Of a DNA stretch of 24,805 nucleotides, positions 2,301 to 21,877 are shown piece by piece. The DNA is from Bodo saltans (Eukaryota > Euglenozoa > Kinetoplastea > Eubodonida > Bodonidae), in contig CYKH01002155.1 in assembly GCA_001460835.1 (NCBI GenBank), forward strand, positions 9,199-34,003, read 5' to 3'. The translations under genes and the position numbers were made by a program. Position 1 is the stretch's first letter. The number at the start of each line of letters is the position of its first letter. The notes below the pieces were generated by a model. That model was not told the origin of the DNA. It saw nothing but the letters and a program-made list of their open reading frames with translations, and made no database searches.

Positions 2301-2478
2301 CAGACATTTCAACCGGTTAATGAAACTCCTTTGTTTACGAGTAAAACATGTTGTCCCTTGAGTTCCACAGAAAACGAATAACCGTTTCCTCATTTGCACC
2401 AATACTCCGTTCTTTTGTGTTTCTTTTTCGGTCATCTAAACAGAAAAGCAAACCAGATAACAGTTTTGCACACAGTGT
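2301..2478. other. Intergenic spacer, exonuclease 3' UTR
   Basis: No coding frame with support. It is AT-rich and holds the presumed 3' UTR of the exonuclease gene, and leads into the T-run acceptor of the next gene. Confidence 0.5.
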
Positions 2479-2733
2479 ATTTTTTTTTTAGCGAATTTAG
2501 GGAAAATACTCTTTTCTTTTTTCATGGCGCACTTGATGCGTCGGCTTAGCACAGTTGGTCGAGGTAACATCCTTGCCCCAACTAGCTCTGATGCCTCCAA
2601 AGCAAAGCAGTGCACGTATTTTTCTTTAGCGAATTTAGGACAAATATTCTTCTTTTCCATGGCACACTTGATGCGTCGGCTTAGCACAGTTGGTCGAGGC
2701 AACATCCTTGCCCCAACTAGCTCTGATGCCTCC
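2479..2733 (+). repeat. Tandem duplication of splice acceptor, start codon and N-terminal leader (period ~135 bp)
   Basis: Two copies, about 2479-2598 and 2617-2733. Each has a T-rich tract, the shared string TAGCGAATTTAGG, a pyrimidine stretch, and an ATG (2524 and 2659) followed by 75 nt coding for the same 25 residues beginning MAHLMRRLSTVGRG. Across those 75 nt only two bases differ, and both changes are silent (GCG/GCA and GGT/GGC). The upstream noncoding part has diverged more and carries a 3-nt length difference. The two ATGs are 135 bp apart and in the same frame, so starting at 2524 would give a protein with the leader twice. Either AG (2490-2491 or 2628-2629) could accept the spliced leader. 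Confidence 0.9.
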
Positions 2734-2844
2734 GTTCTGGAACGGCAAGAAGCCGCACTGTATCATGTCCGAGAGAAACTAATGGGGCGGCAAGAGTCCT
2801 GCAGTGCCATCGTTTTGTCCGCGAGCACCTTGTCACGCACGATC

Positions 2845-2894
2845 ATGTCCACCCAAATGCAGAGCAGGGATGTCCACCCAAATGCAGAGCAGGG
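2845..2894 (+). repeat. Perfect 25-bp tandem duplication, frame-shifting
   Basis: Two identical 25-bp units, 2845-2869 and 2870-2894, each beginning ATGTCCACCC and ending GAGCAGGG. Both can be read as MSTQMQSR, in two different frames. Before the repeat the frame is that of 2659; after it the long open frame is shifted by +1. The lack of any mismatch means a recent event or an artefact. Confidence 0.95.
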
Positions 2895-3374
2895 GCTGGT
2901 CGGTCGGCACGGCCAACCACCTCGCCGACGCCACTGCCATCATGCACGCACAGATCGCCAAAGCAACAGCGCGGGGCTTGAGCGTTGCCCGTGTTGCGGA
3001 GACGGGCGCTACAATGGACGACAGTCCGCAGTACAGCGCCTCGGGATTCCGCATCAAGTTCGCGAGTGCGGATGCAGTGGCGCGCCTCATCGTCGTAGAC
3101 TGCTTTGCGCATGAGCCCCTTGAGGAGGTTGTCCGTCATATCAGACTCCTCGATGCCCAGTACAAACTGAACACGATCATCTGCTTCCTCACCACCCCCC
3201 GGCCAACAGAGGGGCAGGGGTTTGTGATTGCCCCCAGTCAACTCTTGACGCTAGCAGACGCTTATGATACCGGAGTGGATTTGGTCATTCCCACCCACTT
3301 TGATCAATCTGTAGTGGAGTTCCTTACGGAAGTGTTTCTTTCCTCCTCTGGCAGGTACATGAAGGGCGGTGGTA

Positions 3375-3406
3375 CATCGGCGACAACGTCCATCGGCGAC
3401 GACGTC
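3375..3406 (+). repeat. 16-bp tandem duplication, frame-shifting
   Basis: Units CATCGGCGACAACGTC (3375-3390) and CATCGGCGACGACGTC (3391-3406) differ at one base. Reading through one copy only, the frame of the upstream 2870-3451 segment passes directly into the frame that stays open to 7550. Reading both copies leads to the TAG at 3449-3451. Confidence 0.9.
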
Positions 3407-3770
3407 GAACTTCTCACAAATCCGAAGTTTGTTGTTAGACGTAACGGATAGAAACCAACACCCCGGGCAGCAACTGCACAACACAAAAGATGTGACTGGG
3501 GGTGTGCCTAACTTAGAGGGCTTCGCAGTGACCAGCCGCAAGATCGGCCTCGATGAGGATCGGCTGGAAGAGGAAGTGAGCGAAGCGCAGCGCCGAGAAG
3601 AAAAGAAGCGGGAGCTAAAGCGACAGTTTCTACTCCAACGAGAAAAGGCAGCCAACGTCATTGACACCAACCCAGAATACATTTCTCTGCTGAGCAAGTA
3701 CGAGATCTGTCTTCGCCAGCTGAGCTCAAATAAAGAGAAGATCGCAGACTTGAACGCGACCATTGAAACG

Positions 3771-6700
3771 ATGAATGGGGAGAAGGAGAACCTTCGACAG
3801 ACTATTGCCGATGAACAGGCGGAGACGGAGCGGCTTAAAGAACTCCTTAGTGCGTATCAAAGCCGTGAGGATTCGACGGGGAAGGAGCGAGGCACCCCCG
3901 CCTTCCACAATCAATTAGTGCAGCGAGAGCAACGCATCGCCGTATTAGAAAAGGAGTCGGTTGGCTTTAAGGCCAAGTACGAAGCGACCAAAAAGCAGCT
4001 TGATGACACTGCTGCACGCCTTGAACGCATCAACAAAGAAAACGATGAAGCAAAGCGGCATATCATTAATTTGAACAAACGGTTTGAAAATCGCCTCCGC
4101 GCGCTTGGCGTCACAGGAGTAATCGACCTGGATGAAGAAGTCCACAAACAAAATGAGCAAGTCAATGCGCTCAAGCAGGATGTGTATAAGTGGACGCGTC
4201 GCACCACCGTCATGCGGCTGCGCATGGAGGCCAAAGAGGTGGACCATATGGAGCAGCACGATGTGGACGGGTTTGGTCGCACAGCTGGCGCCATCATTGG
4301 AGGCTTTACACAGATGATGTCCAAGGACCAAATGAGAGAGTTGTTGAATGCAAGGAAAGCCGCCACGTACAGCACACCCCGTCAAGGGTCGTTGTCTGCG
4401 AGCCCTCCAAAGGATCTTCTTGGGCTGACGCCTCCGCTCCAGTCGACATCATTTTCTGTGACCCCACAGGAGCTTCCCATCATCGGGAAACTACCTCCAC
4501 GACAACAGGACGAATCTCGAATGTCAGTCGTGAGTGTTGGGTCCGACCCGTCTGGTTCCGCAGAGACTGATGTTCCCTCCTTCTTAACTGCCTTTGGCGG
4601 TATGTCTGCATTGCAATTCAACGATATGACGGCTCCCACCACCAACAACGATCGTGAACTGTGCGACTTGCTGGTGGAAGAGGCTTCCAAAGCTGTGTCA
4701 GAAGGCGATGCGGTCATCTCATCTGTCAAGGACCAGAATAAGATGTTTGCTGAGATGCGTCAGAAGCAACAGGCGGAGAACATTGGTCTGGGTAAGATTA
4801 GGGCATCCTCCATGTTCGCTGACCCTCAGCTAGCAAGACGGCGCCTTTCCCCAGCTGTGGTGAGTCCCCCTTCGGAAGCGGCTATCAAGTGGGCGACCAA
4901 CAACACCACCCAGCGGGCAGAAGAGACACTGACCTCATTACAGTCCATTTCGGATCGCATTGGGGCTGAACTTGCAGCGCTCGTCCAGTCAGCGGAGTTG
5001 GCCAACCGGAACGAAGAGCAGAACAGAAAGCATCTCGACGTCGCGGTGCACGACTTTATGCACCTTTCTCGAGCTGCACCGGTTCCTACCTACGAGGCCG
5101 TCTTGCAGAAGCTGCGCTCGTACACTGCGGGCGAAGTCCAGAAACGAGAGCGGAATCTTGCCAGCGGCACGCTGCGCGCAGAAGAGCTGGAGCGTGTGGC
5201 CTCAGAGTTTGCTCGGTGGCAAGTGATCCTTGATGAAGTCGATGAAAAATTGTCTTCATTTGCAAGATCTCGCGAGTCTGGTTCAACCGATCAGCGCAGA
5301 AGAGAGCAATTAGAGCAGCAGCTCGACGTGCTGGAAGCCAAGGCGATGCGCCTCATCCCTGAACTTACGGTCACGAGGGACCCCTCCAACTACGTCGCCA
5401 CCCAGAAGGAGATTTTCGTCCTTCGGCGAGAACTTAAGAAGTTGCCTGGTGGACGCCTGAAGATAAAACGTGGGGCACTCTCTCCAAGGTCGCCCCCTGC
5501 ACTCAATGCAAGTATCGCTCTGGGGATGGGCGCCTCCCTGGGTGCCGCCGCTGCCGCTGGTCTTATGGACAGCACTTCATCGACAGGCAGTGGCGGCTCA
5601 TCTCAGCCCACCGGCCCTGCGGCTGATGAGCCGCTTTCCATTCTTGATGTTGCGGAGAAGGCGCTCACCGCTCACCTTGAAGCAACCCGCATCGCGACAG
5701 CAGACCCTGAAGCCCCCCGTCACGCGGTGCATCGCCGTTCCACTGCACTTGTTGGTGAACTTCAGAGTTTGCAGTCAGTGATGGCGCAGAGTGGCGCATT
5801 GCTGGAAAGCTCATTCCAATCGGTTGAGTTGGGGCGTCAAGCTGCCGCGAATCTGAACACAAGCGCACACGACGCTGAGGTGGACACGAATGAGAAGCCG
5901 TTTAGCACGCCTGATCGTGAAACACCATTATCGCCTCCTAAGGCGCATCATGCTATGTTCGCCCCTGGAACTCCTGGAGTTGCTGGGGCTCCCACAGCGA
6001 ACAACGGTGCAATGCATAACGTCGCCGCGGATATGCTGCAACGATTCCGCTCGTACAGCGTGGTAAAGAAAGGTCAGCTGAATCACAGCGGCGGATCCAC
6101 TGCCTCCTCGTACAACGCCGCAACGGTCTCTTCCTCGAACAACACCATGGGGCTACGCGACCTTGTCGGCGGTATCAGGACAATGGTGCAAGCAAAGCTG
6201 GACGCCGCTCAAGAAAGCGTGCAGCAAATCTCTCAACAAGTGAGGGACGATGTGAAGGGAGTGCTTGGGGAGACAAGCGCTTTCGGAGAGCTGAACTTCC
6301 GTCACATTGAAGCGCTGTTCGAGCAGACCAAAGATATCAACACCCCAACTGTCCTGTACCAGCTGATCCTGGTGTACCACCGAGACGTGGTGCGGCTCCT
6401 TCGGCAGTTGCGGAAACGGACGTCTCTTACGAGTGTGAACATCATTGACGCGCATCATCTTCAGAAGCAACTTTTGAAGGAAAACCGACCGTTGACAAAA
6501 TCACAAGCGGATAATATTCCATTTATCCTTTCCGTCGACGCGGCACAAGTGGCACGTTTTGCAGACTACTTTGAGAGGGAGACAGAGATGCTCGTCAAGG
6601 AGGGCATTTCACGCCTTCAGCGGCATGTGGAAGAAGTCTCTGCCAAGAACTTAAACGTGGATATCAAATCGCTTCATGTGGCGGAGCATCATCGTGCTCG

Positions 6701-7550
6701 TTCCACGAGTATCTCGGATGGGGCACCCACAGCTGTGCAGTCCCCACAGACCACATCCCTTCCTACCTCTACGAAGGTGTCGCGGAGGCCGTCCATGGAC
6801 ACACGCGGCTCGAAGGAACTCGCTGCCCTCCCTCTCAAACAGCACGGTGGGCTGTCCGATGAGCTGTCCTTTGCCATCCCTGCAGAATCTGTGCAGACGG
6901 CCTCGTCCAACGTGTCTCCTGTCGATGCAAACGCGGTCGCCAGAGGGGCGCACCCATCGCATCGAGGCAAGTATCACGTCGACGTCCCACAAGCATCGTC
7001 GTCTCATCAGTTGCAACCTTTCCCTACCCATGAGCCACTCAGTGCGAGGAGACCTTCTGCGGATGAAGTGCAACAGTCCACCGCACTCCTTCTCGGCGTG
7101 GACCAGCAGCAGCAGCATGTTGTCAACAACGCACGATTGAAGCAACTGGTCGCCTCGGCTATGCGAATCGGTACTCCACGCCTTCCAGCTTCAGGTGCAC
7201 AGCAGGCAGTGCTCTCCACAACTTTATTTGGGAGTGCCCCGATGGATCCGCATTACAACAACGGAGAGCTAGTAGATCCCCAAAGTGTGATTTACCTCCC
7301 GAGGACTCCTGCCATCTCCCAACCCTCCCGTCCAGCCATGGCACGTAAACATGAACTGACGACCAGCAGGCAGCGGCTCATTGACGACGCAATGCATCGG
7401 ATCATGATGCACTCTGCTGGCAATAGTGGTGGGGGCGCAGCACAATTGCCGCACCTCCCTGATTGGTCATCGAGAATTCCACCTCCCTCTCGACAACGAA
7501 TGCTCCAGCAGCAGCAGCAGCAGCAGCCTCATGGTCAGGGGATCAAATAA
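3771..7550 (+). CDS. Longest ATG-initiated part of the coiled-coil protein (1259 aa), function unknown
   Basis: This is the 3' part of the split gene. The frame is open from about 3369, but the codon there is GTG and the first in-frame ATG is 3771. No pyrimidine tract with AG lies just upstream of 3771, which argues against an independent gene start. The frame-consistent region from 3453 to about 4260 is strongly charged heptad-type sequence (runs such as RREEKKRELKRQF), i.e. a long coiled coil. A second helical region lies near 4910-5450. Between and after them are Ser/Pro/Ala-rich linkers, including an Ala/Gly-rich patch near 5520-5600 and many SP/TP sites. The C-terminus is Gln-rich and ends shortly after seven glutamines. 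No enzymatic motif was found. The pattern fits a scaffold, cytoskeletal or basal-body protein, but that is only inference from composition. Confidence 0.7.
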   Translation: MNGEKENLRQTIADEQAETERLKELLSAYQSREDSTGKERGTPAFHNQLVQREQRIAVLEKESVGFKAKYEATKKQLDDTAARLERINKENDEAKRHIINLNKRFENRLRALGVTGVIDLDEEVHKQNEQVNALKQDVYKWTRRTTVMRLRMEAKEVDHMEQHDVDGFGRTAGAIIGGFTQMMSKDQMRELLNARKAATYSTPRQGSLSASPPKDLLGLTPPLQSTSFSVTPQELPIIGKLPPRQQDESRMSVVSVGSDPSGSAETDVPSFLTAFGGMSALQFNDMTAPTTNNDRELCDLLVEEASKAVSEGDAVISSVKDQNKMFAEMRQKQQAENIGLGKIRASSMFADPQLARRRLSPAVVSPPSEAAIKWATNNTTQRAEETLTSLQSISDRIGAELAALVQSAELANRNEEQNRKHLDVAVHDFMHLSRAAPVPTYEAVLQKLRSYTAGEVQKRERNLASGTLRAEELERVASEFARWQVILDEVDEKLSSFARSRESGSTDQRRREQLEQQLDVLEAKAMRLIPELTVTRDPSNYVATQKEIFVLRRELKKLPGGRLKIKRGALSPRSPPALNASIALGMGASLGAAAAAGLMDSTSSTGSGGSSQPTGPAADEPLSILDVAEKALTAHLEATRIATADPEAPRHAVHRRSTALVGELQSLQSVMAQSGALLESSFQSVELGRQAAANLNTSAHDAEVDTNEKPFSTPDRETPLSPPKAHHAMFAPGTPGVAGAPTANNGAMHNVAADMLQRFRSYSVVKKGQLNHSGGSTASSYNAATVSSSNNTMGLRDLVGGIRTMVQAKLDAAQESVQQISQQVRDDVKGVLGETSAFGELNFRHIEALFEQTKDINTPTVLYQLILVYHRDVVRLLRQLRKRTSLTSVNIIDAHHLQKQLLKENRPLTKSQADNIPFILSVDAAQVARFADYFERETEMLVKEGISRLQRHVEEVSAKNLNVDIKSLHVAEHHRARSTSISDGAPTAVQSPQTTSLPTSTKVSRRPSMDTRGSKELAALPLKQHGGLSDELSFAIPAESVQTASSNVSPVDANAVARGAHPSHRGKYHVDVPQASSSHQLQPFPTHEPLSARRPSADEVQQSTALLLGVDQQQQHVVNNARLKQLVASAMRIGTPRLPASGAQQAVLSTTLFGSAPMDPHYNNGELVDPQSVIYLPRTPAISQPSRPAMARKHELTTSRQRLIDDAMHRIMMHSAGNSGGGAAQLPHLPDWSSRIPPPSRQRMLQQQQQQQPHGQGIK
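7506..7526 (+). repeat. (CAG)7 triplet run
   Basis: Seven CAG codons in frame near the 3' end of the coiled-coil gene encode seven glutamines. Such pure triplet runs are length-variable and make a convenient polymorphic marker. Confidence 0.9.
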
Positions 7551-11897: not shown

Positions 11898-14645
11898 ATG
11901 CAGCCATATCAAGGAGCGGGGTGGACAGGGCAATACCCTCAAGCAGGGGCTTCCCAACAACCTGGTGCTCAACAACAGTATGCGCAACAAAGTTATCCAC
12001 AAGGGCAGCCCTTGCAAGGATATGCGCCTCAAGAGCAGCAGCAACAGCAGCAGTTTCAACCTGCTCAGTATCAACAGCAACAACAGCAATATCCTCAGGC
12101 ACAACAGCAATATGCCCAACAGCAGCAGCAGTTGGCATATCCGCAGCAACAGCAACAGCAGGTTAACAGCGTCCCTCAAGGGCAGCTGCCTCCCATGCCT
12201 CTCCCTCCCACCCAGGCAACTCCGGTCACCCCAACATTCCAGAACACACCCGACCCGGCCTTGCTAAACCGAGAGCAGAGCGACAGCAACGGGCTGCGAT
12301 GGACCTGGTCGACCTACCCCAACACCGAGCGACCAAAGGGTGCCCGAGGTGGAGGTGCTGCTGGACACATCCACACCCCACCCATGATTATTCCCCTGAG
12401 CTGCATGTACACCCCGCTACAACCTCTGACGACAGGGACGCCAGAAGTGCAGGGGCAACCGGAGCTGTGCAAGAACTGCGGTTCGATTTGGTCGCGCCAC
12501 AGTCGCGTGGATGTTGCTGCAAACTACTGGGCATGTTTGTCATGCTTCTCCCGCAATCCCCTGCCCAAGGGGTTTGATCCCCAGCACCCCGCACTCCTTC
12601 ACGACACGGTCGAGTACGTCTTGGGCACCGATAGTGAAGCCCGCCCTACGTTCCTTTTTGTCATTGACACATGCATCCCGCAGGAAGAGATGGACGCCCT
12701 GAAGCGTAATTTATTGCGTTGCGTGGAGTGGTTGCCACCTCTGTCGCTCGTAGGCTTTGTGACCTTTGGACATGGAGTGACCCTGTGGGAGCTGGGCTGC
12801 GAGGAGCTGAACAAGTGCTACTGCCTGCGAGGGACTCGACAGTACTCCGTCACGGAGCTGACTGCAATGCTCAACGTCAGTGAAACGAGCCCTGTCCTAG
12901 GCCGGTTCCTCTGCCCCCTCGACGAGTGCGAGTTCGCCCTCAACTCCATTATCGATGAGCTGAGTGTTGACCCCTTCCCTGTGTCTGTTGGATTCCGACC
13001 TCAGCGAGCAACAGGGACTGCCATTGACCTCGCGGTGCGACTCATGGAGTTCCTCGGGAGCGGATCCACGTGCGGTAAGGTGGCACTGTTTTGTGGTGGT
13101 CCCTGCACTCGTGGCCCTGGTAAGGTGGTGGGTGTCGACAAGGCTGAGATGCTCCGCTTCCATCGTGACTTTATGGACGGTAACACGCCGCACTACCAAG
13201 CCGCGTTCGACTTCTACAACGACATTGCTGGCCGTCTCCAAGCGGTCCGCGGTGCGTTGGATGTGTTTGCCGAGAGCTTCGATCAAGTCGGCATCACAGA
13301 GCTTCGACGTTGCGTCAACAACACTGGTGGCACGTTCGTTTGTGGCGACACATTTGATCATCAAATGTTTACGGAGAGTTTCCAGCGCAGCTTTCAACGC
13401 TGCAACATCAAGCCGACTGGAGAGGTGGTGGAGGGAGACCTCGAGACCCATGCCATGTTTGGACTTCAGGTGCAACTGTTGACAAGTGCCGACACGCTGA
13501 TTTCAGGAGTCATCGGGCCGTGCTCTGCTGTTCCGTTGGCAAAGGCAGGCCCAACAGCGACCCCAGCGATCAACGCTGCGAATAGCCGAGTCTCTCCGCT
13601 TGTCATTGGTCTCGGAGGCACGACGACGTGGTCCACCAGCTGCGCTGACGAAAGCCTTACCCTCACCTTTGTGTTTGACACTGAGACTTCGGACAGTGCT
13701 GATACGCAACAACAACAACAACCTGGTTCGCCCTCTGGCCCTGCTACTGTCGTTTCCACGTCCCAACGCTTCTTCCAATTCCAGGCGTCCTACGTCACCG
13801 CCACTGGGCAGCGCCGTATTCGTGTCTCTACTGTTGTACAGCCTGTCGCTCCTTTAAAAGACCCAACGTACTTTGTGTTCCACAGAACATTTGATCAGGC
13901 GTGCGCTGCTGCTGTGACGTCTCGCATGGCGGTCTGGCTCATGGAGCAACAAGACAACCGCTGGGAGTCCACCAAACGTTGGCTGGACAAGTTGCTCGTG
14001 CAGTTTGTTCGTCGCTTTGGCACCTACACCATTGGACAACCAGACTCACTGCGTCTTGCTCCGTGTCTTAGCCTATTTCCGTCCTTCGTGTTCAACCTTC
14101 GCCGATCCGAGTTTTTTATGGTTCAGAATATTTCCCCTGATGAGACCACCTTCAAACGCCACTGGATGATGCGAGAGCCGTGCGATAGTTGCGTGCTGAT
14201 GATCCAGCCCACACTCTTTAGCTACACTCTTGCGGCCCCGGTCGCCTCCCCGGTGCCACTTGACAGCACGAGCCTTGTGCCAGACCACGTCCTACTTATG
14301 GACGCCTTCTTTAACGTTCACGTGTTGTGGGGCGCTACTGTCTACGAGTGGCTGAAGATGAAGTACCATGAGAACCCCGACTTTGCCCACTTTAAAGCTC
14401 AAGTGGATGCCCCTGACGTCGACGCGGCGGAGATCCTGAAGCGACGCTTCCCGTACCCACGCTTTTCCAAGACAGATGTCAACGGATCTGAGTCCCGACA
14501 TGTCAAGACACGCTTGAACCCAACGACCACCCACAACAACACAATGCAGTCGGGCGGCGAGGTGATTTACACCGACGACGCAAGCGTGACGCGCTTTATG
14601 CAGACACTCAAGGCGGCTGCGGTGGCGCCCGAAGCGCCGAAGTAA
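11898..14645 (+). CDS. SEC23: COPII coat subunit Sec23 with Gln-rich N-terminal extension
   Basis: 915 aa. Sec23 pairs with Sec24 to form the inner COPII coat on the ER and is the GTPase-activating protein for Sar1. Sec23 is preferred over Sec24 because of LRWTWSTYPNTE at the domain start, FLFVIDTCIPQEEM in the trunk, the ELGCEELNK segment and FCGGPCTRGPGKVVG, all close to classical Sec23 signatures. The zinc finger is complete: C191, C194, C213, C216. Trunk, beta-barrel and helical parts follow, and the gelsolin-like end contains MIQPTLFSYTL and RLNPTTTHNN. An arginine in SESRHVKTRLNP lies where the Sar1 arginine finger of yeast Sec23 is expected, which is inferred by position. The first ~105 residues are dominated by Gln with Tyr, Pro and Ala (CAG/CAA-rich DNA at about 11930-12170). 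Canonical Sec23 starts near the LRWTW motif, so this extension is unusual. A second short Gln run (residues ~602-606) interrupts the beta-barrel region. Confidence 0.95.
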   Translation: MQPYQGAGWTGQYPQAGASQQPGAQQQYAQQSYPQGQPLQGYAPQEQQQQQQFQPAQYQQQQQQYPQAQQQYAQQQQQLAYPQQQQQQVNSVPQGQLPPMPLPPTQATPVTPTFQNTPDPALLNREQSDSNGLRWTWSTYPNTERPKGARGGGAAGHIHTPPMIIPLSCMYTPLQPLTTGTPEVQGQPELCKNCGSIWSRHSRVDVAANYWACLSCFSRNPLPKGFDPQHPALLHDTVEYVLGTDSEARPTFLFVIDTCIPQEEMDALKRNLLRCVEWLPPLSLVGFVTFGHGVTLWELGCEELNKCYCLRGTRQYSVTELTAMLNVSETSPVLGRFLCPLDECEFALNSIIDELSVDPFPVSVGFRPQRATGTAIDLAVRLMEFLGSGSTCGKVALFCGGPCTRGPGKVVGVDKAEMLRFHRDFMDGNTPHYQAAFDFYNDIAGRLQAVRGALDVFAESFDQVGITELRRCVNNTGGTFVCGDTFDHQMFTESFQRSFQRCNIKPTGEVVEGDLETHAMFGLQVQLLTSADTLISGVIGPCSAVPLAKAGPTATPAINAANSRVSPLVIGLGGTTTWSTSCADESLTLTFVFDTETSDSADTQQQQQPGSPSGPATVVSTSQRFFQFQASYVTATGQRRIRVSTVVQPVAPLKDPTYFVFHRTFDQACAAAVTSRMAVWLMEQQDNRWESTKRWLDKLLVQFVRRFGTYTIGQPDSLRLAPCLSLFPSFVFNLRRSEFFMVQNISPDETTFKRHWMMREPCDSCVLMIQPTLFSYTLAAPVASPVPLDSTSLVPDHVLLMDAFFNVHVLWGATVYEWLKMKYHENPDFAHFKAQVDAPDVDAAEILKRRFPYPRFSKTDVNGSESRHVKTRLNPTTTHNNTMQSGGEVIYTDDASVTRFMQTLKAAAVAPEAPK

Positions 14646-15094
14646 GGAGCAGGAGAGATGCCTAGGACTTTACATGAGGGCCAGGAGAATGAAATATGAT
14701 GTGCTTGTGTGCTTAGAACTGCATTCCAGGCCGTTCAACCTTAGCAACAACCAAAGCAAAACTACCATTTATCATCTTGACCGTTTTTCTTGATGCTATG
14801 TTGTCATGTTCCTTGTCGTGTTTTTTCCCCTAGAGTGAACTTCGTGAGTTCGTAGACTCTTTTGTGAGAAAAGGAAAGTGCCACGTTAGCACTTTGTGTC
14901 CTCTCGCGTGCAGTCTCGGTATTGTTCATCAACAACATCGAGCTCTCCGCGAAAGACCCAAAAAGAGCTTTTTGAAAGAAAAGCTATTCATTTCAGTGAA
15001 TAGAAAAGTAACAAAAAACGTCATCAACACACTTCAATTTTAGTACCACCACTCACGAAGGAACAAGCAACACAATCACACAGCGGAATCAACA
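14646..15094. other. 449-bp intergenic region with acceptor for the WD40-channel gene
   Basis: No supported coding frame and no tRNA-like structure seen. It holds the Sec23 3' UTR and several T-rich tracts. The likeliest trans-splice acceptor for the next gene is ACTTCAATTTTAG, with AG at 15042-15043, 52 nt before the ATG at 15095. An alternative is ATTCATTTCAG near 14986-14996. Confidence 0.5.
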
Positions 15095-18000
15095 ATGGAT
15101 CTTCGGTTTATGCAATACAACAGTGAGTTCGACGAGAATGAAGAGAAGAGCACCCCCATCGTCACTTGGATGGAGAAGGAGCGCATTTTCTGCATGGCCG
15201 CCACCCCTGGAGGTCGTATCATTACCGCCGGCGACACCAGTGGTGACATTAGCTTCTGGGACAGCCGTACTGGTACCAAAGAGTACGACTTATCTGGCCA
15301 CACCGAGGCTGTGCTGGCGTTAGTGGTCGTGGCGGATCTGAATGCCCTCTTCTCTGCAGGTGCGGACAGTACCGTTCGTCTTTGGAATTTAGAAACACTA
15401 CAAAATACCATGGTGTTTGAAGGTCACCGTGGTTTCATCGTCGGTCTGTTTGCGATGCGATCGGAGACGGGAACAGGTCTGTTCTCCGGAAGTGATGATC
15501 GTACGGTGAAACAGTGGAACTCTAACAGTGGTGCTTGTGTGCACACATACAAAGGCCACAAAGGTCCTGTGAACGCTATCACCGCCACGGAGACAAACAT
15601 GATTTCTGGCAGCAGCGACGGTATTATTAAAATTTGGGACTTGGGATCTCGCCGATGCATCCGCACCATCGAAGCACACACCGACTCGATCTGGTGTTTG
15701 ATTCAACTCAAGGACGGCCGCTTCGCATCCGGGAGCACAGACTCTTCCATCAAGATCTGGGAGAATATTTTCCTCAACAACAACGCCGTCACGCTCACTG
15801 CCCACCATGGCAAAGTCCGCAAACTGTTGTCCTACGGCCCCATTCTCTTCTCTGCTGGTGCAGATGCTGTGATCTACGCGTGGGATACACGCACCAACAA
15901 CCTCGTGAGAACGCTGAAGTATCACACGAAACAAATCTCAGGCCTTACGTTGCACAACAACAATTTGTGCTCCTCTGGATTCGATAAGAACGTCTGCCGT
16001 TGGGACGTGCAGCTGCTCCTCCCAGAGAAGCAACCGATTGTCCAATTTCAGCAGCTTTCGGTGGCCAAGGACCAAGACGGGGACGGTGGAGACAAGAACG
16101 AAGGCGTGAACTATCGGCGCAACCAAAAGCGTGTCCGTGAGAAGACGCCTGAGGATATCGTCGAGCTCTACAAGGAGCTCCCCATCAATTTTGTGGTCGA
16201 CGCATTAGACTTCAAGGTCACCTCATCCCGACTGATGGGAGAGATTATTTTCTACATCCCCTTTCTCATTTGCTTCGTCTTTGTGTTCATGCTCGCTCGC
16301 CCCATTGAGGACGGCTACTACATGACGCAAGCCATTTCCGACGTGCTCGTCACCCAACAGTTGCCCTCCTTTAAGAACCCGCGCACCTTTACTGAGGTCA
16401 CGACCGTGGCGTGGTTCTACACGTGGATGACGTTAATGGTGACGGAGTTGTGGCGTGATCGATCCGACCTCACGTTTCCCTCGGTGCAGGGACAGAATAT
16501 TCTAGTGGGAGCGATGCGTGTTCGTCAGCAGCGTGCCACGCCCAATTCCTGCTCCTTCAACAAGCATTTCTTCAATATGTCCGTCGGCGGGCTTCCGTGT
16601 TACGGCGCGTTAGACTCCCAAGGCGACACCAGTCCATTTGTATGTCCGCAGTACTCCCTCTGCTCAAACACCACCACCGATAACGCCAATGCTATTGCAG
16701 CCGCACTGAGCACCCTCGGATTGACCTCCGCAGGCTTCACGTTCGACGCCTCAGCAGGCCTTCCGTACGAAGGTCAAGTCGCATCCTACACAGACGGCGG
16801 CTTTGCCATTGACTTCAACTTCTCAGAGCCACTGCAAGTTCAGCTAGACAAGATTGCTGCGATGGAGACGTTAGGGTACGTGGATGAAGTCGTGACACGC
16901 CTCGTGGACGTTGCGTTCTACGTCTACAACCCCAGCATCGACGTGTTTGTGAGCTTCCTGATGGTGCTTGAAGTCCCATACGGAGGCACGTGGATGCCTC
17001 TTGCTCGCACCACTGGGTTCGAAGTCTTCACCACCCGTCACAGCGGACAACTAGGATTTCAAGTATTCTTCTTCTTCTTTGTGCTCGGCTTCATTGCGCT
17101 GTTCATTTGGCAATTCGTCGCAGACTTCCGCAAAGGCCGCACCACAAGTTTCATTCTCGACGCATGGAACGTCATTGAATTCGTGAATTTGTTAATCTTT
17201 ATTGTCATGTACGGGTACCTCTACAGCTGGATTATTCAGTCCCGCCAGCTAAAACTTGACGACTTACTTGCAGAAACGGCATACTCGTCGATTCTAGAGA
17301 AGACAAACACGTACTACCAGTCCATGGTGTGGTTCAATGCTGTCAACACTGTACTGACCTTCATGAAGCTTCTCAAGTACGTTCGCCTCAACGATCGCCT
17401 TAACATCTTGACGCGTACTCTGTCCGTTGCCCAGCAGTCATTGCTTGGCGTGCTCGTTCTGTTCGTGTACGTGGTGTTTGGCTTTGCGCTGACAGGCAAC
17501 AACCTTTACGGTGTTGCGATGTTCAACTTCCGAAACATCTCGGTCTCGTATGTGGCATTGCTGCGCGCGCTTATTGGCGACGTTGACTACACGGCCATGA
17601 CCATGGAGACCATCATCGTGACCATCTTCTTCTTCTGGGCCTACATGATTCTCGGCCAGTTCATTCTGCTCAACTTCCTTGTTGCCGTGATCAGCGATGG
17701 TTTCCACGAAGTGAGCATGACAAAGTCGTCCATTCCGCTGGATCAGACGATCGTCAAGGCGTTTAAGGATGCGAGGTACGAGTTCCTTCCAAAGGTATTA
17801 CGCTGGAAGTTCCTGCTGCTGCGCCATCGTGCAACGCAAACGACGATTGTGGCCAACACACTCGACGAGCTCGTGGACAAGCGTAATAAAATGGTCGATG
17901 AGGACGCTGCACAACGTCAAGATTACGATGAGGTCGAGGACGTGCTGATGCGCAAAGCGGACTTCAAAGCGCTGGTTCCTAAAGATGACCAGGAGCTGCT

Positions 18001-18241
18001 GAAAGAAAACGAAACCTTTATTGATGAGGTGTGGAAGGACATGGCATGGGAGTATCACCACAAACAAATGGCGGCGAAGGGACAAGATGAAATTGAGCGC
18101 GAGGCGATTGTGTTTGAGGAGGTAGAGCAGGCCCTTCGTGGCCTGAGCGCGTCGTTCCCAGTGATGGAGCAGCTGAAGAACCGCCTGCAGGTGCAGGAAG
18201 CAAAGCTACGTCCGTTAGCTCGTTCCATGGGCATCCGATAA
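15095..18241 (+). CDS. WD40-repeat / polycystin (TRPP-type) cation channel fusion protein
   Basis: 1048 aa with two complete modules in one unbroken frame. Residues ~20-308 contain seven WD40 repeats ending in SFWDS, RLWNL, KQWNS, KIWDL, KIWEN, YAWDT and CRWDV, enough for a closed seven-blade propeller. From residue ~381 follows a PKD2-like channel: TM1 (~381-402), a large lumenal/extracellular TOP-type domain (~405-645) with paired cysteines, possible N-glycosylation sites (NMS, NTT, NFS) and the VYNPSIDVFVSFLMVLEVP segment, TM2 (~654-678), TM3 (~688-715), TM4 (~742-768), TM5 (~783-806), a pore helix and filter LRALIGDVDY (residues 823-832, compare the LGD of PKD2), and TM6 (~843-870). The C-terminal ~180 residues are cytosolic, charged and partly coiled coil. 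Family members conduct Na+, K+ or Ca2+ and are often ciliary. The propeller would face the cytosol and could bind a partner or tether the channel. Channel identity is strong; ion preference and location are inference. Confidence 0.93.
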   Translation: MDLRFMQYNSEFDENEEKSTPIVTWMEKERIFCMAATPGGRIITAGDTSGDISFWDSRTGTKEYDLSGHTEAVLALVVVADLNALFSAGADSTVRLWNLETLQNTMVFEGHRGFIVGLFAMRSETGTGLFSGSDDRTVKQWNSNSGACVHTYKGHKGPVNAITATETNMISGSSDGIIKIWDLGSRRCIRTIEAHTDSIWCLIQLKDGRFASGSTDSSIKIWENIFLNNNAVTLTAHHGKVRKLLSYGPILFSAGADAVIYAWDTRTNNLVRTLKYHTKQISGLTLHNNNLCSSGFDKNVCRWDVQLLLPEKQPIVQFQQLSVAKDQDGDGGDKNEGVNYRRNQKRVREKTPEDIVELYKELPINFVVDALDFKVTSSRLMGEIIFYIPFLICFVFVFMLARPIEDGYYMTQAISDVLVTQQLPSFKNPRTFTEVTTVAWFYTWMTLMVTELWRDRSDLTFPSVQGQNILVGAMRVRQQRATPNSCSFNKHFFNMSVGGLPCYGALDSQGDTSPFVCPQYSLCSNTTTDNANAIAAALSTLGLTSAGFTFDASAGLPYEGQVASYTDGGFAIDFNFSEPLQVQLDKIAAMETLGYVDEVVTRLVDVAFYVYNPSIDVFVSFLMVLEVPYGGTWMPLARTTGFEVFTTRHSGQLGFQVFFFFFVLGFIALFIWQFVADFRKGRTTSFILDAWNVIEFVNLLIFIVMYGYLYSWIIQSRQLKLDDLLAETAYSSILEKTNTYYQSMVWFNAVNTVLTFMKLLKYVRLNDRLNILTRTLSVAQQSLLGVLVLFVYVVFGFALTGNNLYGVAMFNFRNISVSYVALLRALIGDVDYTAMTMETIIVTIFFFWAYMILGQFILLNFLVAVISDGFHEVSMTKSSIPLDQTIVKAFKDARYEFLPKVLRWKFLLLRHRATQTTIVANTLDELVDKRNKMVDEDAAQRQDYDEVEDVLMRKADFKALVPKDDQELLKENETFIDEVWKDMAWEYHHKQMAAKGQDEIEREAIVFEEVEQALRGLSASFPVMEQLKNRLQVQEAKLRPLARSMGIR

Positions 18242-18796: not shown

Positions 18797-21054
18797 ATGC
18801 TTCGTCGCTCGGCATTTCGCATGGCGGTTTCAAGGTCCTCGCTTCCTAGCCCTTCACGTGCCTTTACGATAAGGCTTCAAGATGTGTCAACGCGTTTATC
18901 AAGCAGCATGCGCTCAGTCTCACGCCATTTGAGCACGACATGACGCTGACTGCATAAAGAAGCTCAGTTCTTCAGAGCAAAAAGAGCTTATGCGTTACAA
19001 CTTCCCAAGTCAAACGAAAAGAGCAGTGGACAACGCCGTGGCGTCTCAGTTCGATGCGCTCAATCATCATCCTTGCTTTGAGAAAGCTGCGCGTGAGAGA
19101 GTTGCGAATGCGAGGGAGGTGCGGAAGGAACTGGGAAAGTTGGAATCGTTGGGAATCATAACTCTCTCCGACTTTCGAACGATGCGCAGAGACATTCAAT
19201 TTGAGAGCAGTGTGGTGAAGTTCCTCGACTGGCATGTCGAGTCAATAGACAAGTTGTTCGCATGGCTAGACGATGAGGTGCTAGACTTCAAAAACCGTCA
19301 TCCTGAACTGAAAGGGGCATACTCGCAGCTCTTGTGTCGCCACATGTCACTGTTGACGCACCACCATCATTATTACCGTGCAGGCAAAACGAAACAGGTG
19401 ACATCGATGCTCGGACGGGACATTGAGGTGAACAACTTGTTGGAGAATGTCCTTTCCGACGAAGTCGCCCTTGAGCACAGACCTATCCAATACGTGATTG
19501 CTCCGCGGCGGCACAGCAAGTCGTTGATGCTTTCACAGGTCGTCGCTTCGGCGGCGAAGCACCGCGCTGACGAAGGTAAGAAGCGTTCAACAACAGTACA
19601 ACCTTGTTGTCAAACATCCAGGCCGTTGAAGACATCGGTGACGTGAAGCGGTCGGGTCGTACACGCGTGGTGCTGTGCTATGCGTGAGGGCAGCAAGAAG
19701 AAAAAACTGTTCTTCAAGCAATTTATGTTGCCTTTTTATCAATGCATGAGCTTCGAAGTCGCCCACGCGCTGGCCAAGTCGGTTGGGCTTGGGCGTGTGG
19801 TGATTGCGGCGGACGAGGTGTCGAGGCTCACGGATGGGCGGGGGCATCCAGCAGTGGTACGATACGAAGGACCAGGAGGCTGCAATGTCCACCATCACGG
19901 CGATGTACGCCAGCGGCTGGTCGCTGCTGGGCTCTGGGCCTACAAACGAACACTTTAAGACGATGGCTGAACTTAGTGCCCGTGAAACACTGAAAGTCGC
20001 ACTGAAACCGCTGACACTCGCGACGCGCTGTGACTTCCAGCTGATGAAGAAACAAGTGAGAAGCAAGTACCGGGTGAGAAGCTTAAGAAGTGAGAAGCAG
20101 GGGAGTTTTCTCCATCACTCCGCTTCCTGTTTGAGGTCGTAAAGAACTTCCCTGGGTACATGGGTGTGTGGGTCGAGATGCTTGAGAAGGAAAAAGTTGT
20201 TCTCAGCCTCAGCTGCCTCGGGAGCGGTGGTTTGAGAGAGTGGCACTGAGTGTTGAAGGCACTGAGATTGTTGGTGATGATATTGTCGTGGGTCTAACCA
20301 ACGCAAATGTTTATGTGTGGCTTTCTATTTGCTTTGCTTTGCCGAGAGGACGGAGTTTCCCTCTCATAGAAACGTTTGCCGAGAGGACGGAGTTTCCCTC
20401 TCATAGAAACGTTAAAAAACAATCACCCTTTCGGAGGCGTTGGGGCGCAGCAGCAAGAAGAAGCAACATGAGCGCCTCGTGGAGAATATCGCTGCTCTCA
20501 ATTCCCCTCATTTCTCTGTGCTGAGTCCACAGTGCCCGATAAACCCAGGGTGCGATGTGGCGATGCTCCTCCGCGCCGGCGAGAAAAATGCGACCGACAC
20601 AGTGGACCAGCGCGCGAAAGTGCTGCTTCTTTTTGAGACGAAATACTGCGCCTCGTCCAAGAGCACCCCGCATCGCAAGGCGCTGCACGCGCTCAACGGC
20701 GTTGTTGATTACGTGAACCAATGCAACATCCGCCGTGTGTGCTTTGTGTACTGCAACACGGCTGTCAGAGATGTGAAGAATGCCCAGACGCAACATCCTT
20801 ACTTGTTGTCAGAGAAACCTAAGAAGCCGAACATCAACAAATTTAAGACCCTTAAGGACGTCATGACGGAGCTACAACGACGCGGATGCACCACTTCCCT
20901 CCATACCGTGTGGGAAGAGGATGAGTGGCGCAGTCTGCTGGACTCCCTCTACCTTATTGTGCCTGATATGGACGAGGAGTCCATTGTTCCCAACGCGCCA
21001 ATCCCGCTGCGTCGTGCGCGCCCAGTCAACAACATCAAATCAAAGCAGGTGTGA
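18797..21054 (+). pseudogene. Degenerate RHS/CRN-like NTPase-nuclease gene
   Basis: Protein-like sequence runs through the region but hops between all three forward frames. Frame pieces: 18797-18943 (48 codons, Arg/Ser-rich presequence-like, beginning MLRRSAFRMAVSR), 18933-19580, ~19560-19687, 19680-19840, 19845-~20060, 20097-20230, 20240-20374 and ~20415-21054. One switch coincides with a G5 run at 19840-19844 and another lies next to a 37-bp tandem duplication. Recognisable parts, in order: a helical N-terminal domain, a Walker-A-like loop in which both motif glycines are replaced (IAPRRHSKSLML at 19497-19532), a Walker-B-like VVIAADEVSRL, an ATPase sensor-region-like SPSLRFLFEVV, and a C-terminal restriction-endonuclease-like core with D (codon at 20554) and ETK (20635-20643). 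The order matches the NTPase plus REase layout known for RHS and CRN proteins. At least five frame changes make it non-functional as one protein. Confidence 0.7.
20338..20413 (+). repeat. 37-bp tandem duplication inside the degenerate gene
   Basis: Period 37 bp. The unit starting GCCGAGAGGACGGAG occurs at 20341 and again at 20378, identical through GAAACGTT. The length is 1 modulo 3, so it shifts the frame as the 16- and 25-bp duplications do. Confidence 0.95.
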
Positions 21055-21059
21055 GAGAG

Positions 21060-21390
21060 AAGATGACGTGATGCAGGAAGTGCGAGCCCGCAATTGTGAG
21101 GAGCAACGACGGTTACATCACCGAGGATATGTCGGACTGATTAGAGAAATTGTGGGCGTTCGCGGCGCGGTGAAGGGTGCTTGCCGCTGCTTGAGGTGAT
21201 TGCGTCGACACTGATTCACGCGGGAAGAAACCTGTCGCATTTGGCGATGTTTGGCGAGAAGCCTATGTGCAGCACTGGGCCGGACGAGCTCTTCTATCGG
21301 CCCTTGGGGAGCGACTGCGTCAGCGTGGTCAAGCCGGCTGCAGGGGCCGGCTCCATGCACGCGACGCAAACGTTCTTGATGTCATAGCCC
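21060..21390 (+). pseudogene. Remnant of a second copy of the RHS/CRN-like gene
   Basis: About 21165-21330 is colinear with 23755-23935 of the intact copy. Shared landmarks are a CTTGAG-TGAT-GCGTCGAC stretch (IASTLIH in both), the KKPV-FGDVWR region (read in a different frame here) and the LFYRPLG / LFYRPVG motif. At least two indels separate these landmarks into different frames, and the piece after LFYRPLG ends at a TAG (21387). It is a truncated, frame-broken copy of the 3' half of the neighbouring gene and not part of the upstream nuclease-bearing one, since it follows that gene's stop codon. Exact limits are uncertain. Confidence 0.65.
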
Positions 21391-21877
21391 AGCGGTACGA
21401 CCCTATTTTTGTACCTCAAGACTCAGGTTTAAGCTTGAGTAGCTGGTTTCTGATGGAGTTTGTCGTCTCCAACGCAAAAACGTCCCACGCAAAGGTCTGC
21501 CCTTCGCTTCCCCTCACTTGGACATTGCTATTCGAACTCTCTATGATCTGCGGATTTTCTACCCTGTAAGGGTCCCGTGTTGGCGCGGAATCTATTCGAA
21601 CTCTCTATGATCTGCGGGCTGAGGAGCACACCCGAAGTGACACAAACAGATTACGTGTGTGCCGTGTGCGTGCGAAACGGCTTTCGGTAGGACAGCGCTG
21701 CCCACCATGTTTTTGGTTTATTGAGTTAATGCTCGCCCCACTCTACTAAACTTGTAAGAATAGCAAACCTTCTTTATTTAGGCGAAGCATGGCTGTATCC
21801 TCTGGGTTTTTGTTGGGTGAATGAAGGATCCTAATCGTCACAGAGAGTGAGAGTTAGAGAATCAAAGTGATAAGAAC
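21391..21877. other. Noncoding region upstream of the intact RHS/CRN-like gene
   Basis: No supported gene. It contains a 26-bp direct repeat (21528-21553 and 21592-21617), and AT-rich sequence from about 21710. It may include more decayed remnants of the same gene family, but I could not align them. Confidence 0.45.
21528..21617 (+). repeat. 26-bp direct repeat with 38-bp spacer
   Basis: CTATTCGAACTCTCTATGAT followed by CTGCGG occurs identically at 21528-21553 and 21592-21617 (period 64 bp). The spacer is not repeated. It is noncoding. Confidence 0.9.

Follow-up and report, generated by a model that had tools for sequence, protein, structure and literature searches.

A large gene assembled in three reading frames

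The window (the whole 24,805-nucleotide stretch of Bodo saltans DNA analysed here) contains, at positions 2659–7550 of the plus strand, a large gene that is assembled in three reading frames, as judged from codon usage, arithmetic, Pfam and a search of the organism's own genome. Segment 1 lies in an open frame at 2461–3114 whose weak coding signal ends near 2870, segment 2 in an open frame at 2783–3451, and segment 3 in an open frame of 1395 amino acids at 3363–7550, all on the plus strand. Two tandem duplications on the same strand mark the transitions: a perfect one of 25 bp in exactly 2.0 copies (2845–2894), where the coding signal passes from frame 1 to frame 2, and one of 16 bp with one mismatch (3375–3406), where it passes from frame 2 to frame 3. 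At both sites the frame offset equals the unit length modulo 3. None of 300 random windows with the window's own dinucleotide frequencies contained a tandem duplication with a unit of 16–40 bp and at most one mismatch, and chance is therefore ruled out for the two duplications.

A first-pass annotation had described both repeats, placed them exactly at the frame switches and argued that the segments are not separate genes, and our results bear this out. Scores of codon usage, with long open frames of this genome as training set, shift at both sites: frame 1 is preferred before about 2870, weakly (between 2641 and 2880 the score is 0.7 to 1.8 per 120 nt), frame 2 is clear until about 3400, and frame 3 prevails from there on. 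A frame HMM recovered the switch at 3375 and missed the one at 2845, because segment 1 is short and weak. The arithmetic also holds, as 7550 − 2659 + 1 gives 4892 nucleotides, which less 41 make 3 × 1617, that is, 1617 codons with the stop codon included. As had been noticed, segment 3 has no ATG until 3771 and remains open over a long distance, here 1,395 codons; segment 2 has its first ATG at 2870, within the second 25-bp copy. Codon usage and arithmetic support the view that 2659–7550 is one ordinary B. saltans gene whose frame is broken twice by lesions of the same type.

None of the three segments reached the cut-off of a Pfam family (best E 0.012). Among solved structures segment 3 had no match at E 0.1 and segment 2 a single weak match (E 0.069); the AlphaFold2 model of segment 2 alone had a mean pLDDT of 43, and we therefore claim no fold for the gene. 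Segments 2 and 3 each retrieved only themselves from the genome, with no paralogue, and no relative of the gene was confirmed in viral contigs. The annotation had also suggested an intact second allele; no second copy or allele was found among the unmasked contigs of our 29.3-Mb set, and the heterozygous reading is kept below as the main rival.

The annotation did not mention an older, in-frame tandem duplication of 135 bp at the 5′ end of the gene (2481–2733, plus strand; 1.9 copies, 91% matches), which comprises upstream sequence and the first codons and provides in-frame ATGs at 2524 and 2659. Because this duplication is in frame, the open frame extends upstream to 2461. The shared coding part of the two copies differs at two places, GCG/GCA and GGT/GGC, both synonymous, and the gene may have acquired a second start. 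Elsewhere in the window, a perfect 37-bp tandem duplication (20338–20413, plus strand) lies among short scrambled frames in several registers at 18933–21569, a region with the look of a decayed gene in which four frames scanned against Pfam gave no match at cut-off. A separate open frame at 15044–18241 combines WD40 repeats with a polycystin-type channel, a pairing that looks unusual.

Recurrence of tandem duplications in a 211-kb sample

The window is contig C877 in the examined set of 934 contigs (29.3 Mb). From this set we took a sample of 211,308 non-N bases in 14 contigs, window included, which holds 84 open frames of at least 200 codons; the codon score assigns 166,107 of its bases to coding sequence. 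A scan with minima of 14 bp for the unit and 90% for identity returned 16 tandem duplications, to which we added the 135-bp pair and a 72-bp pair found by Tandem Repeats Finder, run in the window only. Five of the resulting 18 break a reading frame (units of 25, 16, 70, 20 and 61 bp), three of them outside the window: 70 bp at C200:9119, 20 bp at C700:15431 and 61 bp at C750:33494. In C200 and C750 the codon scores of the left flank are indecisive and the case for a frame break therefore rests on translation, the same peptide being translated twice, in two frames. Half of the duplications (9 of 18) are multiples of three within an open frame (135, 21, 72, 132, 57, 180, 84, 282 and 15 bp, the 132- and 57-bp ones overlapping each other), and the remaining four (37, 15, 24 and 341 bp) are found in sequence that is non-coding or scrambled, or across a gene end. 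The 341-bp duplication (C10:16268–16949) has one mismatch and takes in the 3′ end of a gene, stop codon included.

A looser scan also picked up, at C300:11705, a pair of 54-nt copies that are 94% identical and lie 22 nt apart, the main frame containing a stop, together with two rows of 294 bp at 72% in C550. Some frame breaks had no duplication, namely two in C850 and one in C10 at a T run. The frame HMM gave seven switches in all, and two were set aside by eye as not being frame breaks, one at window position 12096 in a Q-rich repeat and one in C750 at sample position 809 that resembles a gene end. A local frame-switch scan yielded 148 candidates and was dropped as too noisy, except for its count of nonsense candidates: at the threshold used there were none in frame on the coding strand and four on the other strand.

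Outside the window, the sample thus contains three frame-breaking duplications in 146.7 kb of coding sequence with 75 open frames. At this rate a gene of 4.85 kb is expected to receive 0.10 hits, with a probability of 0.0046 of two or more, and about 22 double-hit genes of such size are predicted genome-wide over some 4,750 gene-lengths. The annotation had called the two independent lesions striking; both lesions are present, and their spacing of 530 bp is close, but with frame-breaking duplications at such density the double hit of this gene becomes less striking and is not special in itself. Extrapolated to 29.3 Mb, about 470 coding frames would be broken (rough 95% range 100 to 1,400, from three events).

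Dynein and kinesin genes and the properties of the units

If the lesion is general, it should also affect conserved families, where a given set of profile positions would then be matched twice, in two frames. Such repeated positions occur in the AAA_6 domain of a dynein heavy chain in C259, where the profile led us to expect a unit of about 31 bp, and the DNA, read after the prediction, has a perfect 31-bp duplication at C259:12272. In a kinesin motor in C619, repeated profile positions gave an advance expectation of about 184 bp, and a perfect 181-bp period is present at C619:5497, with 173 of its bases within the stretch read; this duplication ends in what we take to be the nucleotide-binding motif. 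In C505, positions 1–91 of DHC_N2 occur twice, about 344 bp apart and in different frames, the shorter match being below the family cut-off; a dynein duplication of about 344 bp at C505:54894–55240 is suggested by the profile coordinates only.

Among 19 dynein heavy-chain loci, which exclude two weak PF03028 matches (C741, C484) and one weak AAA_6 match (C697), 14 have open frames of 3,956 to 4,896 codons, four are broken (C259, C505, C45, C174) and C539 is ambiguous; one duplication was read (C259) and one deduced from the profile (C505). The heavy chain in C45 shifts frame near position 2,270 of locus L032 (C45:22001–26500), and the DNA there contains no tandem duplication; conserved sequence is presumably missing at this break, judged against what we would expect a dynein to have there. 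Of 79 kinesin matches, one pair represents a duplication (C619) and two carry an in-frame TGA (C673, C208), so that nonsense lesions do occur. No kinase match was divided over two frames among the best 126 of 341 candidates scored, a set biased towards intact genes that was left uncounted. Across many contigs, nearly every gene seen is on the plus strand of its contig, with 134 of 134 kinase matches (again from the best 126 of 341 candidates scored) and 78 of 79 kinesin matches on the plus strand.

The seven frame-breaking units that were read have two mismatches in 396 compared bases, with two of the seven units carrying one each, compared to a divergence of up to about 20% in the older in-frame pairs. 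Six of the units measure 1 modulo 3 and the C700 unit 2 modulo 3, and no unit measures exactly 40 bp. Units of 16–70 bp would fit within a read, and those of 181 and about 344 bp are longer than 100 nt, a figure that belongs to the RNA reads and may differ for genomic reads. All six frame-breaking units tested have zero overhang past their two copies and lack microhomology at the junction. Of 11 other duplications, four have no overhang (one of them truncated at a contig end), and the difference is significant by Fisher's exact test (p = 0.035; p = 0.011 without the contig-end case). Since 56% of random joins should lack an overhang, finding none in six of six (p = 0.03) is just mildly unusual.

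The multiples of three among the duplications in coding sequence amount to 9 of 14 when all pairs are counted (p = 0.017), 7 of 12 when a single threshold is applied throughout (p = 0.066), 6 of 11 with overlapping pairs merged (p = 0.12), 6 of 9 with the window excluded (p = 0.042) and 6 of 10 at an identity of at least 98% (p = 0.077). This lean and the old pairs suggest that some of the duplications are real, and part of them probably arose in the cell and were then filtered by selection; the frame-breaking ones are either visible while young, or false.

The motif AGGT is missing from both window units and from six of the seven units read, being present in the 181-bp unit; TA is missing from both window units and from three of the seven; and no 6-mer occurs in more than two of the seven. 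On these counts we rejected splicing of the AGGT type, excision of the TA type and a motif common to the units. GT..AG spans of frame-mending length lie inside five of the seven pairs, including four spans in the window's 25-bp pair, and none was found in the window's 16-bp pair or in the C700 pair.

Origin of the frame-breaking duplications

We lean, with some reservation, towards the explanation that the duplications are false homotype tandem duplications that arose where contigs were joined in an assembly built from short reads and then gap-closed. Contigs with overlapping ends would have been joined with the overlap left unmerged, giving a tandem copy that breaks the frame, and the two duplications in the window would be one instance of a class recurring throughout the assembly; the extra copies would then be absent from the DNA of the cell. 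The sequence examined appears to be the larger contigs of the B. saltans assembly of PMC4728078, an assembly given there as 39.9 Mb in 2,402 scaffolds with an N50 of 31.5 kb and as built from Illumina reads with Velvet (k = 41) and SSPACE, gap closing by GapFiller and IMAGE, and iCORN and REAPR. Overlapping contig ends that leave false tandem duplications are a documented class of error, described in PMC8081667 in the context of long-read assemblers. In favour of this explanation, duplications with near-identical copies recur in unrelated genes, dynein and kinesin included. The four broken loci among 19 dynein heavy chains would be hard to tolerate if homozygous, and real loss-of-function alleles should include more nonsense than the ratio of five frame-breaking duplications to no nonsense candidate in the sample.

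Several observations speak against an assembly error. One mismatch is present in each of two of the seven units, the C300 copies are at 94% with a spacer between them, and a 40-bp unit, which would be the simplest k − 1 overlap for Velvet, does not occur. The units of 181 and about 344 bp are longer than 100 nt, GapFiller accepts a closure only when the extensions from both sides share 10 nt or more and the closed length matches the estimate (PMC3446322), two kinesin matches carry an in-frame TGA, and the lean to multiples of three and the old pairs point to some real duplications. It is therefore possible, if in our estimate clearly less probable than an assembly error, that the frame-breaking duplications are real and young and mostly heterozygous or segregating in the culture, produced by microhomology-free repair, the damaged allele having been assembled while the other allele works. 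The in-frame duplications are of varied age (135 bp at 91% identity, 72 bp at about 80%, and 132, 180 and 282 bp at 98–99%), and their lean to multiples of three, at p = 0.017 to 0.12 depending on how pairs are counted, is what births under selection would give; the mismatches count here too. B. saltans clones have moreover been genotyped with two PFR2 alleles, with likely NHEJ repair (PMC9544060). The absence of nonsense candidates beside five frame-breaking duplications weighs against such alleles, as do the two affected dynein loci of 19, one through a duplication seen in the DNA and one through a duplication deduced from the profile, and the second allele was not found among the contigs searched. 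The weighting of these two explanations is unaffected by the weaker modulo-3 figure. The PFR2 primer PR3 of the same study matches C348:7188–7210 exactly, on the minus strand, with the best paraflagellar-rod domain 113 bp away; this identifies the genome as that of B. saltans and bears out the annotation's mention of other bodonids. Public PacBio (SRR11932788) and RNA-seq (SRR11935165) reads of B. saltans are named in PMC8163844.

The remaining explanations are far less probable. That the gene is a dying pseudogene in which both lesions are fixed would account for its carrying two of them, but segment 3, open for 1,395 codons with codon usage of the coding type, makes it improbable. Still less credible are real, fixed duplications corrected in expression by ribosomal frameshifting, by excision of a copy from RNA or DNA, or in a similar way. 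The frame-mending GT..AG spans in five of seven pairs would suit such correction, though spans this short should be frequent by chance; the required shift varies by locus, the 16-bp and C700 pairs contain no span, and the units share none of the motifs considered above. Tolerated pairs should also last and diverge, and the sole frame-disturbing addition of the looser scan was the complex C300 case. A single uniform frameshift rule was rejected because the units differ in length modulo 3, and microhomology or slippage as the origin left no trace in the six frame-breaking units tested. The annotation had offered very recent, artefactual or tolerated breaks; recent or artefactual fits best, and the analysis yielded no positive evidence for frameshifting or RNA-level removal. 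That the segments are two or three separate genes we regard as the least plausible reading, since, even though every segment has its own open frame, the frames overlap, they are offset at each site by the unit length modulo 3, and about 400 nt of segment 3 precede its first ATG. As to the wider proposition that frame-breaking duplications are real in their hundreds, and that B. saltans tolerates them as a heterozygous load from duplication-prone repair or by having a copy removed or skipped in expression, we consider it unlikely.

Short tandem-duplication mutations arise by end joining of staggered breaks or by slippage. The duplications described here share their length range and have in-frame relatives of several ages in this genome, and differ in the lack of microhomology at the six junctions tested and in their high apparent density. 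Introns can arise through tandem duplication of an AGGT-bearing segment; the likeness is duplication within coding sequence, and the difference is that six of seven units here lack AGGT. Ciliate-type eliminated sequences are bounded by TA, whereas the window's units contain no TA. False homotype duplications, as presented in PMC8081667, likewise consist of adjacent near-identical copies, but they concern long-read assemblers and have a gap between the copies, whereas those in B. saltans are gapless and measure 16 to about 344 bp. Among the matches listed in a literature search, the titles and abstract openings gave no account of these duplications, and we do not claim that they are absent from print.

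If the rate in our sample holds, genes of B. saltans would be counted as pieces, and comparative work could take up false losses. Were the duplications real instead, B. saltans would be a strong case for studying duplication-prone end joining.
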